Source: Xanthobacter autotrophicus (GTDB lineage: Bacteria > Pseudomonadota > Alphaproteobacteria > Rhizobiales > Xanthobacteraceae). Taken from it: a stretch of 50,746 nucleotides of DNA. This document shows, piece by piece, positions 100-7,684 of the stretch. The DNA is taken from contig NZ_JAIVFN010000016.1 of the NCBI RefSeq assembly GCF_030015065.1, positions 1-50,746 of the forward strand, given 5' to 3'. Position 1 is the first letter of the stretch, and each line of letters starts with the position of its first letter. Under the pieces are notes generated by a model, which was not told the DNA's origin, ran no database searches, and saw only the letters and a list, made by a program, of their open reading frames with translations. The position numbers were made by a program, and so were the translations under genes.

Positions 100-2469
100 T
101 CAGTTCCGCAGCGGCCTTCCCGTCTCCAGGATGTGCTCGATCCGGTCCAGCGTGGCGGTGGTGCGGATGAGCTTCATGAAGCCGTCGCGCTCCAGCTCCA
201 GCACCCTGGCGGCGGGCACCGGCTCGATATGGTCGGCACTGCCGCCGGTGAGCACTTCCGCCAGCACGCCGGAGACCACGGTATCGTGCTTGGTCGCCAT
301 GCCGCGCTTGGCGAAGCCTGCCACCGCCATGTCCATGGCCACCTTGCCGGTGGGACCCGGCAGGAAGAATTCCACGGGCTTGGGCGGCGCGTAGCCCTCC
401 ACCAGCGCCAGGGCCTTCGCCTTGGCGTCGGCGAGGAGCCGGTCGCGGTTCATGGTGATGCCGTCGCTCTCGCGCAGGAATTTCAGCTCCTTGGCCTCGG
501 CGGCGGACTTCGCCACGGTGGCGGTGGAGACCGTCTCGAACACCTTGGAGGGCGCCGGCATGGGCCCCTTGGGGAACTTGGGGTCGGTGGCCCAGCGCTC
601 CAGCATGGCGGTGCAGCCGCCCCAGGCGGGCAGCACGCCCACGCCGCATTCCACGAGGCCGATATAGCTCTCCGCATGGGCCTGCACGGCGCTGGCGTGG
701 AGCAGGATCTCGCACCCGCCGCCCAGCGCCAGCCCCGAGGGGGCCGCCACCACGGGGAAGGGGGCGTATTTCATGTCCTGGTAGGTCTTCTGGCCGGCGG
801 CCACCAGCTTCTCCACCTCGCCGAAGGCGCCGATGTTGCAGGCGAACAGCGCAAGGCCGAGATTGGCGCCCACCGAGAAGTTCGAGCCCTCGTTATAGAT
901 GACGAGCGCCTTGTGCTTGTCCTTCACCAGCTTCAGCGCCTTGCCGAGCAAGGTGATGATGCCTTCATCCAGCGAATTGCTCTTGGAGGTGAATTCCAGG
1001 CACACCACCCCGTCGCCGATATCCCACAAGGCCGCCGAGCCGTTCTTGAGCAGCGGCTGGGACTTCAGCTTGATATCCGCGAGCAGCAGCACGCCTTCCG
1101 GGCGCACCACGTCGCGATAGCTGCCGTCGAGGGCGAGATACTGCCGCGTGCCGTTCTCCACCCGGTAGAAGGGGGTGTCCGCCGCCAGCGCCAGCAGGGC
1201 CGGCACCTCCTCGTCATCGGCCACGAGCAGGCCGGCAAGACGGGCGGCGCCGATCTTGTCGATCAGCTCGAACGGGCCGAATTTCCAATTGTAGCCAAGG
1301 CGCATGGCATCATCTATGGCGACGATGTCGTCCGCCGCCTCGGGCACCAGCCGCGCCGCATAGGCGAGCGTCTTCGCCATGACGGAGCGGGCATAGCGCC
1401 CCGCCGTGCCGGGCGCGGACAGGAGGGCGAAGATGTCCCGGCCAGCCCCGTCCTCCAGCTCCGGCACGCTGGCCTTTTCCTGCGGGCGGTAGGCGCCGGT
1501 GGCGAGATCAATGGCCTCCTTCGCCTTGCCGCCATTGTCACGGTTGAGCCGGTAGAAGCCGCCCTTGCCCTTGCGGCCGGTATAGCCGGTCTCGATCATC
1601 TTCGAGATCAGCGGCTCGTCGCGCAGGGTGGCATGGAACGGGTCTGAGGCGGGAAGCGCCCGCTTCAGGGAGCCCTGCACATGGGGCATCAGGTCGAGGC
1701 CCACGAGGTCGATGAGGCCGAACACGCCGGTCTTGGGGAAGCCGAAGGGCCGGCCCATCACCGCGTCCGCCTCCTCCACCTTGAGGCCGAGGCGGAAGGC
1801 CTCGCCCACGGCGAGCTGCAGCCAGTAGGTGCCGAGCCGGTTGGCGATAAAGCCGGGGGTGTCCTTGCAGGTCACCACGGTCTTGCCCAGCTTCACGTCG
1901 GCAAAGCGCGCGACCGCGGCGACGGTGGCCGGAGCGGTATCGGCGCCGGCCACGATCTCCAGCAGCCGCATGTAGCGCGGCGGGTTGAAGAAGTGGGTGA
2001 TGAGGAAGTCGCGCCGGAAGCTGTCCGGCAGCCCGGCGGTGAGATCGGCGAGCGGAATGGTGGAGGTGTTGGACGACACCGCCGAGCCCGGCCGGCGGGC
2101 GCCCTCGATCTTCGCGTAGAGGGCCTGCTTGATGTCCAGCCGCTCGATCACCGCCTCCACGATCCAGTCGCAGGAGGCGAGGTCCGAGAGGTTGTCCTCG
2201 ATGTTGCCGGTCTTCACCAGCCTGGCGGCGGCTTTCGACATGAAGGGGGCGGGGTCGGCCTTCAGCAGCTTCTCCACCGCCGTTTCGGCGATCACGTTGC
2301 GGTTGGCGGCGCCCTCCGGGACGATGTCGAGGAGCAGCACCTCAATACCGGCGTTGGCCACATGGGCGGCGATGCCCGCGCCCATGACGCCGGCGCCGAT
2401 GACGGCCACTTTCCTGATGTCGAAGTCGCCGATGCCGGCGAAGGTCTTGATATCGGTTTCGCTGGTCAT
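100..2469 (-). CDS. fadN: 3-hydroxyacyl-CoA dehydrogenase / enoyl-CoA hydratase, FadN type
   Basis: A 789-residue bifunctional beta-oxidation enzyme that would hydrate trans-2-enoyl-CoA and oxidise the L-3-hydroxyacyl-CoA with NAD. The N-terminus carries a Rossmann signature (VIGAGVMGAGIAAHVANAG, about residues 15-33) and then the dehydrogenase motif HFFNPP. The C-terminal third is a crotonase domain (SVGANLGLA, and VECGVGVLPAWGG). This order, dehydrogenase first and hydratase last, is that of Bacillus FadN, the reverse of E. coli FadB/FadJ, and the length matches FadN. The ATG at 2469 is chosen because the Rossmann fold starts right after it and GAGGGGG precedes it. The reading frame stays open upstream, but that part is only thiolase DNA in another frame. 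It lies 11 bases after the thiolase, almost certainly in one operon. Confidence 0.93.
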   Translation of the reverse strand: MTSETDIKTFAGIGDFDIRKVAVIGAGVMGAGIAAHVANAGIEVLLLDIVPEGAANRNVIAETAVEKLLKADPAPFMSKAAARLVKTGNIEDNLSDLASCDWIVEAVIERLDIKQALYAKIEGARRPGSAVSSNTSTIPLADLTAGLPDSFRRDFLITHFFNPPRYMRLLEIVAGADTAPATVAAVARFADVKLGKTVVTCKDTPGFIANRLGTYWLQLAVGEAFRLGLKVEEADAVMGRPFGFPKTGVFGLIDLVGLDLMPHVQGSLKRALPASDPFHATLRDEPLISKMIETGYTGRKGKGGFYRLNRDNGGKAKEAIDLATGAYRPQEKASVPELEDGAGRDIFALLSAPGTAGRYARSVMAKTLAYAARLVPEAADDIVAIDDAMRLGYNWKFGPFELIDKIGAARLAGLLVADDEEVPALLALAADTPFYRVENGTRQYLALDGSYRDVVRPEGVLLLADIKLKSQPLLKNGSAALWDIGDGVVCLEFTSKSNSLDEGIITLLGKALKLVKDKHKALVIYNEGSNFSVGANLGLALFACNIGAFGEVEKLVAAGQKTYQDMKYAPFPVVAAPSGLALGGGCEILLHASAVQAHAESYIGLVECGVGVLPAWGGCTAMLERWATDPKFPKGPMPAPSKVFETVSTATVAKSAAEAKELKFLRESDGITMNRDRLLADAKAKALALVEGYAPPKPVEFFLPGPTGKVAMDMAVAGFAKRGMATKHDTVVSGVLAEVLTGGSADHIEPVPAARVLELERDGFMKLIRTTATLDRIEHILETGRPLRN

Positions 2470-2480
2470 GACGCGCCCCC

Positions 2481-3641
2481 TCAGACGCGTTCGAGCACGG
2501 TGGCGATGCCCTGTCCGCCACCGATGCACTGGGTGGCGAGGGCGTATTTCCCGCCCTCCCGCTTCAGCAATGACGCGGCCTTGCCGACGATGCGCGCGCC
2601 CGTGGCGCCGAGGGGATGGCCGAGGGCGATGGCGCCGCCGTCGATGTTGAGGGTCTCGTCGCGGACGCCGAGTTCGCGTTGGCAGGCAAGGGCTTGGGAG
2701 GCGAAGGCCTCGTTCAGCTCCACCACGTCGATCTGCGAGATGTCGATGCCCGAGCGGGTCAGCGCCTTGCGTGTCGCCGCCACCGGGCCGATGCCCATGA
2801 TCTCCGGCGCGCAGCCAGCAACCGCAACGCTTTTCAGGCGGGCGAGGGGTTCCAGGCCATGCTTTTGCGCATAGTCCTCCGAGCACACCAGCACGGCGGA
2901 CGCCCCATCGGTGAGGGGGGAGGAGGTGCCGGCGGTGACGGTGCCGTTCTCGTCGAAGGCGGGCTTGAGGGCGGCCAGGGATTCGGCCGTGGCGTCGCGG
3001 CGGATGCAGCCGTCCTGGGTCGCGGTCTTGCCCGTGTCCTTGCCGTTGATGCGGATGGGCACGATCTCGCCGGCGAACTTGCCGGCCGCCTCGGCGGCGG
3101 TCGCTTTCGCGTGGCTTTTCAAAGCGAAGGCGTCCTGGTCGGCGCGGGTGATCTGCCACTTGGCGGCGACGTTCTCCGCCGTCTCGCCCATGCCCATATA
3201 GGCCTGCGGGAGCTTGGCGTAGAGTGCCGGATTGGGCATGGGATTGAAGCCGGTCATGGGCACGCGGCTCATGCTCTCGATGCCGGCGCAGATGAACGCC
3301 TCGCCGGCGCCGAGCTGGATCTGCCCCGCCGCCATGTGCACCGACTGCATGGACGAGCCGCAGAAGCGGTTCACGGTCGCGCCCGCGACACTGTCCGGCA
3401 GGCCGGCGATCATGCCGATGAGCCGGGCGATGTTAAAGCCTTGCTCTGCCTCGGGAAAAGCGCAGCCGACGATGAGGTCCTCGATGTCCTCCACCTTGAC
3501 GCCGGTGCGGGCCACCAGCTCCGCCACCACCTGTGCGGCGAGGTCGTCCGGGCGCACGCGCGCCAGTTCCCCCTTTTTGGCAAGGGTAAAGGGCGAGCGG
3601 GCATAGCCCGCAATCACAACGTTTTGCGTGGGGGCGCTCAT
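2481..3641 (-). CDS. fadA: Acetyl-CoA acyltransferase (3-ketoacyl-CoA thiolase)
   Basis: A 386-residue thiolase that would cleave 3-ketoacyl-CoA with CoA to acetyl-CoA and a shortened acyl-CoA, the last step of beta-oxidation. The acyl-accepting cysteine is Cys94 in NRFCGSSMQS. The C-terminal active-site pair is His342 in GHPLGATGA and Cys372 in CIGGGQG, and the length is normal for the family. The start at ATG 3641 gives MSAPTQNVVIAGYARSPF, the usual thiolase N-terminus. The gene is first in the thiolase-dehydrogenase pair and lies 67 bases downstream of the merR gene on the same strand. Substrate chain length cannot be read from the sequence. Confidence 0.95.
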   Translation of the reverse strand: MSAPTQNVVIAGYARSPFTLAKKGELARVRPDDLAAQVVAELVARTGVKVEDIEDLIVGCAFPEAEQGFNIARLIGMIAGLPDSVAGATVNRFCGSSMQSVHMAAGQIQLGAGEAFICAGIESMSRVPMTGFNPMPNPALYAKLPQAYMGMGETAENVAAKWQITRADQDAFALKSHAKATAAEAAGKFAGEIVPIRINGKDTGKTATQDGCIRRDATAESLAALKPAFDENGTVTAGTSSPLTDGASAVLVCSEDYAQKHGLEPLARLKSVAVAGCAPEIMGIGPVAATRKALTRSGIDISQIDVVELNEAFASQALACQRELGVRDETLNIDGGAIALGHPLGATGARIVGKAASLLKREGGKYALATQCIGGGQGIATVLERV

Positions 3642-4146: not shown

Positions 4147-4153
4147 AGCTTCA

Positions 4154-4168
4154 CCTATACGTCATCTA
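4154..4168 (-). promoter_or_regulatory. Putative operator next to merR
   Basis: On the minus strand this reads TAGATGACGTATAGG and ends 7 bases before the merR GTG start. Its exact reverse complement relationship to 4456-4470 means that each divergent gene has the motif in the same orientation. Binding here would block translation initiation or transcription of merR, which suggests autoregulation. Confidence 0.5.
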
Positions 4169-4455
4169 TCCGCCCCGAAGATACATGCTTTGACCCTCGG
4201 CGCAAGCCCCGATTCGGCGAGATTTAATCGCGATCGCGTCATCAGCCGCGGGCATGCGCGGGCTTTGGCGAAGGCTTGTTGAAACGGGGGCTTTCGATCC
4301 TGGATTGCGGATGCCCCGATGTACCCTCGCTTTGTCCTGGTCAGGACGGCCCGGCCGGCCAACTGTTGCGCGCCTGCAACGCATCTGGCTTTCCCTTGCG
4401 ATCGCGTTCCGGGTTAAAACGATCACTGTTGACGCAGATATTCGTTTAGGCATGT

Positions 4456-4470
4456 TAGATGACGTATAGG
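4456..4470 (+). promoter_or_regulatory. Putative operator upstream of fadL
   Basis: TAGATGACGTATAGG lies 71 bases before the fadL start and just downstream of the candidate TTGACG box at 4429-4434. It would overlap the -10/+1 zone of that promoter. It is identical to the minus-strand copy beside merR. Confidence 0.5.
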
Positions 4471-4541
4471 GCATCGAAAAAACCAATACTGCACTGCAGC
4501 GTGCCGGGCCCAGAGGAAACAGGTTCAGGAGGGGGTACCCC

Positions 4542-5861
4542 ATGATGATGCGCGACTGGGCCGTGCGGGCGGCCGGAGTGCTTGTTCTTCCCGTGGTCGC
4601 AGGCGCCGCGGGCGAGGCGCAGGCCGGCGGCTTTGGCCTGCGCGAGCAGAGCGCCTACTACCAGGGCACGTCTTTCGCCGGAAACGCGGCGGGGGGCGAG
4701 GGGCTGGGCTCCATGTTCTGGAATCCGGCGGCCATCAGCTTCGCCCCGGGCCTGAGCGTCGAAGGCAACGTCACCTACATCGCGCCCCATGCCGCGGTGG
4801 ATGTCTATTCCGCCACGGCGCCCCTCACCGGCGCCTCGCTGGGCAATCTCGGCGTCAGCGACATCGTGGACAACGGCACCCTGCCGACCACCTACATCTC
4901 CTATGCGTGGGACAAGTGGGCGGTGGGCCTGGCAGTGACCTCGCCCTTCGGCCTCGTGACCGACGCGCCGTGCAACTGGTCGGGCCGCTATTACGGCTGC
5001 TACAACAAGATCTTCGACATGAACGTCCAGGCCTCGGCGGCCTACAGGGTCAATGAGTGGCTGACCCTCGGTGGCGGGCTGAACGTCAACTATATCGACG
5101 CCAAGCTCACCAACGCGCAGTTCGCGGGCCTGGCGACGCCCGCCAACAACCTCTACGCGCAGCTGGACGGAGACGATCTCGGCATCGGCTTCAATCTCGG
5201 CGTGCTGTTCACCCTGGCGCCGGGCACGACGCTCGGCGTGGGCTACCGCTCCTATATCGACCAGAGGCTTGCCGGGACTCTCAATCTCTCGGTGGCCGGC
5301 CTCACCACCGTCAACCAGATGAACGTCAATGCGGGCCTGACCCTCCCGGACCAGGTGACCGCGTCCTTCCGCTCGCAGATCGCGCCGCAATGGACGGTGC
5401 TCGGCACGGTGGAATGGACCAACTGGTCCACGGTGCAGGAACTCGTCGTGACCACGCGCGGCATCCCGGTGAGCACGCTGGACCTCAAGTGGAACGACGG
5501 CTGGTACTTCTCCGGCGGTGTCGAATACCAGTGGGATCCCAGGCTCGCGCTCAGGGCCGGCATCGCCTACGAACTCTCCCCGGTTCCGGACGAGACGCGC
5601 TCGCCGCGCCTGCCCGACACCAACCGCCTGTGGCTGTCGGGGGGCCTCACCTACAATTTCACCCCGCAATTCGCCATGGACTTCGCCTACAGCCACATTT
5701 TCGGCGAGACGAGCCCCATGGGCCTCTATCCCACGGATCCGGCCAACGCGCTGCGCGGCTCTCTCGTGGCCGAGGTGAACGACGGCTACGTGGACATCGT
5801 CTCGGTGGGCCTGCGCTACAAGTTCAATGCCCCGACGGCCGCCGCGCTGATCACCAAGTGA
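4542..5861 (+). CDS. fadL: FadL/OmpP1-family outer-membrane long-chain fatty acid channel
   Basis: A 439-residue outer-membrane beta-barrel predicted to take up long-chain fatty acids or other hydrophobic compounds. A signal peptide spans about residues 1-28 and ends at EAQA. The mature N-terminus GGFGLREQSAYYQGTSFAGN is characteristic of the FadL N-terminal hatch. MFWNPAAISF, another family hallmark, follows. The C-terminus has alternating strands ending in VSVGLRYKF. The start is the first of three consecutive ATG codons at 4542, six bases after AGGAGGGGG. It is divergent from merR and precedes the acyl-CoA ligase, so import and activation are neighbours. Toluene/XylN-type transporters share the fold, so the exact substrate is open. 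Confidence 0.92.
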   Translation: MMMRDWAVRAAGVLVLPVVAGAAGEAQAGGFGLREQSAYYQGTSFAGNAAGGEGLGSMFWNPAAISFAPGLSVEGNVTYIAPHAAVDVYSATAPLTGASLGNLGVSDIVDNGTLPTTYISYAWDKWAVGLAVTSPFGLVTDAPCNWSGRYYGCYNKIFDMNVQASAAYRVNEWLTLGGGLNVNYIDAKLTNAQFAGLATPANNLYAQLDGDDLGIGFNLGVLFTLAPGTTLGVGYRSYIDQRLAGTLNLSVAGLTTVNQMNVNAGLTLPDQVTASFRSQIAPQWTVLGTVEWTNWSTVQELVVTTRGIPVSTLDLKWNDGWYFSGGVEYQWDPRLALRAGIAYELSPVPDETRSPRLPDTNRLWLSGGLTYNFTPQFAMDFAYSHIFGETSPMGLYPTDPANALRGSLVAEVNDGYVDIVSVGLRYKFNAPTAAALITK

Positions 5862-6034: not shown

Positions 6035-7684
6035 ATGCTCCATCGCACCGAAGGCGGGGCCGTGGCCACCGCACCCGTGCCCGAGCTGCTCGACACCAGC
6101 GTCGCCGAGTTCGGCGGGCGCGACGCACTGAGCTTTTTCGGCCGCAAATGGACCTATGCCCAGCTTGGCCGGCTGGTGGATCAGGTCGCGGCGGGCCTTC
6201 AGGCCCAGGGTGTGCACAAGGGCTGCAAGGTGGGCCTGTGCCTGCCCAACACGCCTTATTCGGTCATCTTCTTCTTCGCCGTCATGAAGGCCGGCGGCAC
6301 TGTGGTGAACTTCAGCCCGCTCTATGTGGAGCGCGAGCTGAGGCACCAGATCCGCGATTCCGGTACGACCATCATGGTGGTTCCGGACCTCAGGCTCATC
6401 CATTCGCGGGTCGCGGCGGTGGCGCAGGAGGCGGGGCTTAAGACCATCATCGTCTGTCCCATGGCCGGCATCCTGCCCTTTCCCAAGGGGCTTCTGTTCA
6501 ATCTGTTCAAGCGGAAGGACAAGGCCGAGTACAGCCTCGGCGACGGCCTGCACCTTGCCTATGGCGCGCTGCTGCGCCATGGCGACCGGCCGCAGCCGGT
6601 GGAGGTGGATGTGGAGAACGACGTGGCGGTGCTGCAATATACCGGCGGCACCACCGGCGTGCCCAAGGGCGCCATGCTCACCCATGCCAATGTCTCCGCC
6701 AATGCGCAGCAGGTGATGACGCATGCCGATTGCCGCCGGATCGGCGTGAAGCGGGTGCTCGGCGTGCTGCCCCTGTTCCACGTCTTCGCCATGCAGACGG
6801 TGATGCTGATTCCCATCTGCCTCGGCGCCGAGATCATCCTGGTGCCGCGCTTCCAGCTTTCCGACCTGCTGGACCGCATCGAGCGGGAAAAGCCCACCAT
6901 GTTCCCCGGCGTGCCCACCATCTACGCCGCCATCAACGGCGTGGCGAACATCGACAAGCGTGACCTGAAGTCCCTCACCCTGTGCATCTCCGGCGGCGCA
7001 CCGCTCCCCGCCGAGGTGCGCGAGCGCTTCGAGGACCTCACCGGCTGCAAGCTGGTGGAGGGCTACGGCCTCAGCGAGACCGCCCCGGTCGTGACCGCCA
7101 ACCAGCCTCTTGGCCAGGTGAAGGACGGGTCGGTGGGCACGGCCCTGCCGCAGACGGTGATCGAGATCCGCGACCTCGAGGATGTGCGGCGCATCGTCCC
7201 CCAGGGCCAGAAGGGGGAGGTCTGCGTGCGCGGCCCGCAGGTGATGAAGGGCTACTACAATCGCCCGGAGGAGACCGCATCCGCCTTCATCGACGGCGCC
7301 CTGCGCACCGGCGACGTGGGCTATCTGGACGCGGACGGCTTCCTGTTCCTCGTGGACCGCATCAAGGACGTGATCCTGTGCGGTGGCTATAATGTTTACC
7401 CACGGGTTATCGAGGAAGCGCTCTACCTGCACCCCGCGGTGGCGGAGGCGGTGGCCATCGGCATTCCCGATGCGTATCGCGGCCAGGCGCCCAAGGCCTT
7501 CGTCACTTTGCGCGCGGGCGCCGAGGCGACCCCCGAGGAGCTGATGGACTTTCTCTCGGCGCAGATCTCCAAGATCGAGATGCCCAAGGCGGTGGAGATT
7601 CGCGACAGCCTGCCCAAGAGCGTGGTGGGCAAGCTCTCCAAGAAGGAGCTGGTGGAGGAAGAGCGCCAGCGCGCGGACGGGTAG
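6035..7684 (+). CDS. fadD: Long-chain acyl-CoA ligase (AMP-forming)
   Basis: A 549-residue adenylate-forming enzyme that would activate fatty acids to acyl-CoA using ATP. It has the AMP phosphate-binding loop [16 protein letters not shown], the motif [10 protein letters not shown], the hinge region [20 protein letters not shown] with [14 protein letters not shown], and a C-terminal [13 protein letters not shown] whose lysine is the expected catalytic residue. The ATG at 6035 is preceded by GGAAGGAGGGA at a good distance, whereas the frame upstream lacks a ribosome site. It lies 173 bases after the FadL-type gene. With the thiolase and FadN-type enzyme it completes uptake, activation and degradation, except for an acyl-CoA dehydrogenase, which is not in this window. 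Confidence 0.93.

Follow-up and report, generated by a model that had tools for sequence, protein, structure and literature searches.

A conserved inverted site pair between merR and fadL in Xanthobacter autotrophicus, probably the operators of a fad-linked MerR-family repressor

The gap between a merR-family gene and the divergent fadL gene of Xanthobacter autotrophicus holds two inverted copies of one sequence unit, which recur at the same place in syntenic relatives and accompany this regulator from genome to genome. We analysed a 50,746-nt stretch of contig NZ_JAIVFN010000016.1 (assembly GCF_030015065.1), hereafter called the window. Judging by sequence comparison, we consider it quite probable that the copies are paired operators of the adjacent MerR-family protein, which would act as a repressor of both fadL and merR-fadA-fadB, its repression probably being relieved by an acyl-CoA.

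Extent and rarity of the inverted pair

The first-pass annotation had reported an exact 15-bp inverted pair in this gap, and its coordinates and sequence both proved correct: CCTATACGTCATCTA lies at positions 4154-4168 and its exact inverse at 4456-4470. No further exact copy occurs anywhere in the assembly (5.04 Mb, 594 contigs), and a scan of the window allowing up to three mismatches returned the same two copies and nothing else. Dinucleotide-shuffled windows contained a mean of 0.17 matches at that threshold, a count of two being seen in 1 shuffle of 100. Within the 395-nt gap, the longest inverted pair was 15 bp, with none of 16 bp. When the gap was dinucleotide-shuffled 3000 times, an inverted pair of at least 11 bp arose in 2.2% of the runs. 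A chance origin of the 15-bp pair is thus very improbable, as had been argued, its own rarity being an extrapolation from a test that covered pairs of at least 11 bp.

Comparison with 18 relatives redrew the boundaries of the motif. The conserved unit is TGACGTATAGGnnA, which begins with TGACG and extends three bases past the 15-mer; the first four bases of the 15-mer, TAGA, were not conserved. The terminal A of the unit (position 14) was present in 38 of 38 sites, 19 on the merR side and 19 on the fadL side. The fadL-side site ends 68 nt before the fadL start codon. The coordinates of both sites, of the predicted promoter elements and of the genes are given in Table 1.

Table 1. Candidate operators, predicted promoter elements and genes of the merR-fadL locus (window positions)
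Feature	Position	Strand	Remarks
Candidate merR-side operator, TGACGTATAGGTGA	4151..4164	-	Core exact in 18/19 loci including the window, one substitution in L043; pattern match
Candidate fadL-side operator, TGACGTATAGGGCA	4460..4473	+	Core exact in 18/19 loci, one substitution in L031; pattern match
Predicted merR -10, TATCTT	4178..4183	-	Operator starts 13 nt downstream
Predicted merR -35, TTGCGC	4200..4205	-	16-nt spacer
Predicted fadL -35, TTGACG	4429..4434	+	TTGAC[GC] in 19/19 loci
Predicted fadL -10, CATGTT	4451..4456	+	16-nt spacer; ends 3 nt before operator
fadB-type 3-hydroxyacyl-CoA dehydrogenase/enoyl-CoA hydratase, start approximate	100..2469	-	3HCDH_N, 3HCDH, ECH_1
fadA-type thiolase, 386 aa from MSAPTQ	2481..3641	-	Thiolase_N, Thiolase_C
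merR-family regulator, 145 aa	3709..4146	-	Pfam MerR_1, MerR-DNA-bind, MerR
fadL-type outer-membrane fatty-acid transporter	4542..5861	+	Toluene_X OMPP1/FadL/TodX
fadD-type long-chain acyl-CoA ligase, start approximate, after fadL	6035..7684	+	AMP-binding, AMP-binding_C

Conservation in syntenic relatives

A protein search with the window MerR returned 29 loci. Of these, 18 were syntenic (L031-L047 and L058, from Xanthobacter, Aquabacter, Azorhizobium and Rhizobiales MAGs): in each, merR was divergent from fadL and followed by fadA, and fadB and fadD were each found in 17 of the 18, the misses (L039 and L043) falling at contig ends. The alignment of relatives that had been proposed as a check on the motif bore it out: within 700 nt upstream of merR, the 11-base core TGACGTATAGG was kept on both sides of the gap, with at most one mismatch and in the same inverted layout, in all 19 loci including the window, a count that is not independent since most of the loci belong to one clade with near-duplicates (such as L034/L035 and L038/L039). 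Among the 386 11-mer positions tried in the window gap, TGACGTATAGG was the sole 11-mer present in 19/19 loci; the best block that did not overlap it reached 14/19 and lies in the merR promoter. Beyond the operator, the fadL leader at 4482-4489 (9-16 bases past the site) has an AC shared by all 19 loci and an ATA that is largely conserved; the same stretch reads CGTATAG in L034 and L035, which resembles a second -10 or an additional half-site.

The two inverted sites lie roughly 280-360 bp apart in every one of the 19 loci, a layout that would suit a DNA loop in which one complex bridges both operators and shuts both promoters cooperatively. We consider such a loop unlikely: the spacing varies (277-362 bp), and helical phasing was undetected (Rayleigh R 0.25, p ~0.36, 16 unique distances), so looping by constant phasing was rejected.

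Genes and predicted promoters

On the merR side, the locus continues into fadA, on the same strand and 67 nt downstream of merR, and fadB, neither of which was mentioned in the first-pass annotation. A search for an additional operator in the fadL-fadD gaps (18) and merR-fadA gaps (19) found none, the best match fitting 9 of 12 positions; the best match in the window's own fadL-fadD gap fitted 7 of 12 and was not common to the relatives. At the contig start, positions 11-43 read TCGTCGGCAGCGTCAGATGTGTATGAGAGACAG, which we take to be the Nextera read-1 adapter with one mismatch and which is likely an assembly artefact.

Conserved hexamers mark a predicted promoter on each side. The merR side has TATC[TGC]T ending 12-13 nt ahead of the operator in 19/19 loci and, at 16-nt spacing, a TTG-type -35 hexamer in 18/19, with no match in L045. 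The fadL side has CATnnT at 16-nt spacing in 19/19 loci, a spacing selected from three, and this element ends between 3 nt before and 1 nt inside the operator; in the window it is a weak match to TATAAT. All of these hexamers, and the 16-nt spacing, were picked after viewing the window or the alignment, and the promoters are predictions from conservation.

Relative to these predicted elements, the operators follow or overlap the -10 and lie outside the -35/-10 spacer. A classical MerR activator promoter holds its operator inside a 19-20-nt spacer, whereas both predicted spacers here are 16 nt; with these predicted promoters, the operator positions fit a repressor, not a classical activator. 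The opposite reading, in which MerR untwists an over-long spacer from sites between -35 and -10, draws on the membership of the protein in the MerR superfamily and on the activator folds among its closest solved structures, but it is improbable given the spacer length and operators that begin downstream of the predicted -10 on both sides (by 3 nt at fadL and 13 nt at merR).

For the repressor, we propose that a MerR dimer would bind each 14-bp site. The fadL-side site, which abuts or overlaps the predicted -10, would cover the expected transcription start; the site of the putative merR-fadA-fadB unit lies just past the expected start and would cover the ribosome-binding site. Bound MerR would block RNA polymerase, so that from its positions at both promoters it would repress fadL, fadA, fadB and its own gene. 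A fatty-acid-derived signal, probably acyl-CoA, would relieve this repression.

Genome-wide search for further sites

Matches elsewhere in the X. autotrophicus genome did not exceed chance. The 15-mer with up to three mismatches had 42 matches, including the two in the window, versus 52 for the reversed control; the 11-mer with up to one mismatch had 16, two of them in the window, versus 24. At strict matching, we found no sites beyond chance elsewhere in this genome. We scanned 30 selected ORFs around the 14 other 11-mer matches with Pfam: 14 fitted a Pfam family, and the families found included none of beta-oxidation or of fatty-acid uptake. The match at L016 sits in the coding sequence of an ORF with a carboxyl-transferase domain, which is accD-like and hence possibly of fatty-acid synthesis. 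ORFs at L062 and L072 had no Pfam match; L062 is the sole near-match with promoter-like spacing ahead of an ORF, and a by-eye call of that ORF as a glycosyltransferase was unsupported by Pfam at 1e-8. We treated the near-matches, which fell below the reversed control, as chance and rejected a genome-wide regulon.

The first-pass annotation had held that a lack of motif enrichment near fatty-acid genes would count against an operator, and we found no such enrichment. Its absence is not fatal, because regulation confined to a single fad locus calls for no additional sites. Read most simply, the regulator is a local one, and its two sites cover the divergent fad locus.

Co-occurrence of the site pair and the regulator

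We surveyed 41 genomes of the family, each from a different genus. TGACGTATAGGnnA had 15 matches in 8 genomes (reversed control, 3), and 10 of the 15 formed five inverted pairs, in G000, G001, G006, G013 and G018. A MerR ortholog (E <=7.1e-64, 76-100% identity) was present in exactly those five genomes, the next-best match in any other family genome having E 1.9e-31. All 5 genomes with the ortholog thus carry the site pair and 0 of the 36 without it do, a count that is not independent, as the five genomes are related. The five unpaired matches (L078, L080, L084, L090 and L092) were deemed chance, the reversed control having given 3; their loci, each of about 3 kb, matched none of the five window proteins. 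All five genomes with the fad-linked MerR also hold a second copy at 37-39% identity. In G000, this is a short MerR-like gene (C46:26523-26912, L076; 38% identity to the window MerR, one cysteine) beside an ORF that is presumably YebC-like; the idea that it encodes LiuR gained no support from its neighbouring ORFs, judged by eye.

Of 199 genomes from the wider order, 131 had a MerR homolog at E <=1e-25, and we compared 29 of these matches, the window's own aside. Only three loci, all of one other family (L093, L095 and L097), carried the exact core TGACGTATAGGgcA before merR, within TGACGTATAGGGCA, in the gene order fadD-merR-fadA-fadB.

That some regulator other than the adjacent MerR binds the sites seems distinctly improbable. 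With only two sites in the genome, co-location is the main link to MerR, but the pair and the MerR ortholog co-occur in every case across the family survey, and in another family, whose gene order differs, the core is again found with merR.

Dyad structure and more distant loci

The window operator can be read as a 14-bp dyad, TGACGTA/TAGGnnA, in which five of seven pairs fit at each site and two are broken. Pairs 1-14, 4-11, 6-9 and 7-8 fit in both sites and pair 5-10 is broken in both, while pairs 2-13 and 3-12 fit in one site each. The left arm is nearly invariant and the right arm is degenerate. An earlier description of the motif as an ACGT core without a full dyad needs amending: a degenerate dyad exists once the right arm is added. 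It had looked incomplete partly because the 15-mer omitted the right arm and partly because that arm is degenerate. Because two of seven pairs are broken per window site, occupancy by a symmetric dimer is an assumption of the proposed mechanism. The right arm of the merR-side site includes AGGTGA, 4 nt from the merR GTG start, which likely doubles as the merR Shine-Dalgarno sequence or ribosome-binding site; this second role would account for the drift of the arm.

In some of the more distant fad loci, the dyad is a perfect TGACGTwwACGTCA; it stands before fadD in L129 and L051. Eleven loci from the protein search (L048-L057 and L059) lie outside the 19-locus count. In L048 and L049, merR is preceded by the core, either intact or altered at one base, and a fadL-like gene by TGACGTTAACGGAA. 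The core of L050 lies upstream of merR in the opposite orientation, and L051 has nothing at merR. Sites of the TTGACGTTTACG or TTGACGTAAACG type lie upstream of merR in L052, L053, L054 and L059, and TGACGTTAACGTCA and TGACGTATAGGTCA lie about 470-540 nt upstream of merR in L055 and L057; L056 had no motif match. In L053 (893-2944) and L054 (5463-7517), merR and fadA are separated by a FadH/OYE-like oxidoreductase gene, called from NCBIfam matches that score below the curated cut-offs; this suggests that the merR-fadA unit there includes unsaturated-fatty-acid degradation.

Among the 29 order-level loci, five (L106, L115, L116, L117 and L121) have ACGTwwACGT dyads near merR, located in L115 and L117 downstream of merR and ahead of the next gene; L120 fits a looser pattern only, and the remaining 20 matched no pattern tried. 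An acyl-CoA-dehydrogenase-like gene (NCBIfam matches below curated cut-offs) adjoins merR in L106, L115 and L116. Eight larger stretches from eight of these genomes included four with the core or the perfect dyad, namely L129, which is new, and L132-L134, which are from the same three genomes as L093, L095 and L097; L131 had a one-mismatch site, and L130, L135 and L136 had no site. Scanning 13 genomes with the perfect-dyad pattern TGACGTWWACGTMA returned a single place, ahead of fadD-merR-fadAB in G057; one match, in G000, came from the reversed control.

If the motif acted in the two leaders at the level of RNA or translation, this would fit the orientation of each copy along its gene and the plausible Shine-Dalgarno sequence at merR, but such a role is very improbable given the distance of the fadL-side site from its start codon, its contact with the predicted -10 and the perfect dyad before fadD in distant relatives.

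The proposal that the adjacent MerR controls itself and fadL through these sites, made in the first-pass annotation, is supported by the core in 19/19 loci and by the pair in 5/5 versus 0/36 genomes. It needed amending in that the unit is not the 15-mer, the dyad is degenerate and the sites, given the predicted promoters, lie outside the classical activator position.

The MerR protein and its comparison with known systems

The window protein belongs to the MerR superfamily, with PF13411, PF09278 and PF00376 above cut-off. Its structure model (mean pLDDT 88; residues 1-12 below 50) predicts a winged helix and a single long helix at the C-terminus, with no ligand domain, and Foldseek placed it nearest to the solved folds of MtaN, CueR and NmlR (E 2e-5 to 3e-4, query TM-score 0.4-0.6). 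The protein shares the winged helix and long dimerisation helix with MerR, CueR, CadR, SoxR and BmrR, but differs from them in having neither cysteines nor a C-terminal ligand domain, and from classical MerR activators in the location of its operators outside the predicted promoter spacer. It thus has none of the sensing cysteines of classical MerR metal and redox sensors; cysteine is likewise missing from 20 of 26 rows of alignment A1, with one each in L053, L055, L056, L057, L059 and L076.

The ACGT-rich dyads of some distant homologs (for example TTGACGTTTACGTAAACGT) are presumably LiuR/ILV-box-like, and the window MerR is perhaps LiuR-like itself, a likeness drawn from family, context and this motif. 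The neighbouring branched-chain amino acid degradation genes of the LiuR group are missing at the window locus; unlike LiuR, the window MerR sits with fadL, fadA, fadB and an acyl-CoA ligase, and its operator is TGACGTATAGGnnA at one locus. The literature describes LiuR as a repressor of the MerR family (PMC3223726) that regulates branched-chain amino acid degradation (PMC5343134), and, like the window MerR, it is found beside acyl-CoA catabolic genes. An ILV box has been tied to a LiuR-like MerR in Rhodospirillum rubrum (PMC7238569).

Among the literature matches listed, we found no paper on the window MerR or its motif. What we describe is a real and conserved site pair, most likely the operators of a fad-linked MerR that is itself most likely a repressor, of an ordinary kind and with new detail. 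For Xanthobacter and its relatives, it names an operator and a regulator of fatty-acid uptake and beta-oxidation precisely enough for testing. If the reading holds, the series from perfect to lopsided sites would be a small example of how an operator drifts when a second constraint, the ribosome-binding site, bears on it, and a MerR-type protein would fill a role held by GntR and TetR proteins in other Proteobacteria.

Those proteins are the proteobacterial regulators FadR (GntR family) and PsrA and FadP (TetR family), which regulate fatty-acid degradation (PMC5343134), the function proposed here for the window MerR. The window protein differs from all three in fitting MerR-type Pfam families only. 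The FadR and PsrA operators probably also differ from the window operator. We suggest, tentatively and as a possibility rather than an expectation, that this MerR repressor is the alphaproteobacterial counterpart of FadR, PsrA and FadP in long-chain beta-oxidation; it would travel with fadA-fadB across several families, its operator would have drifted from a perfect TGACGTwwACGTCA to the lopsided TGACGTATAGGnnA, and it would sense acyl-CoAs through a protein that has no separate ligand domain.
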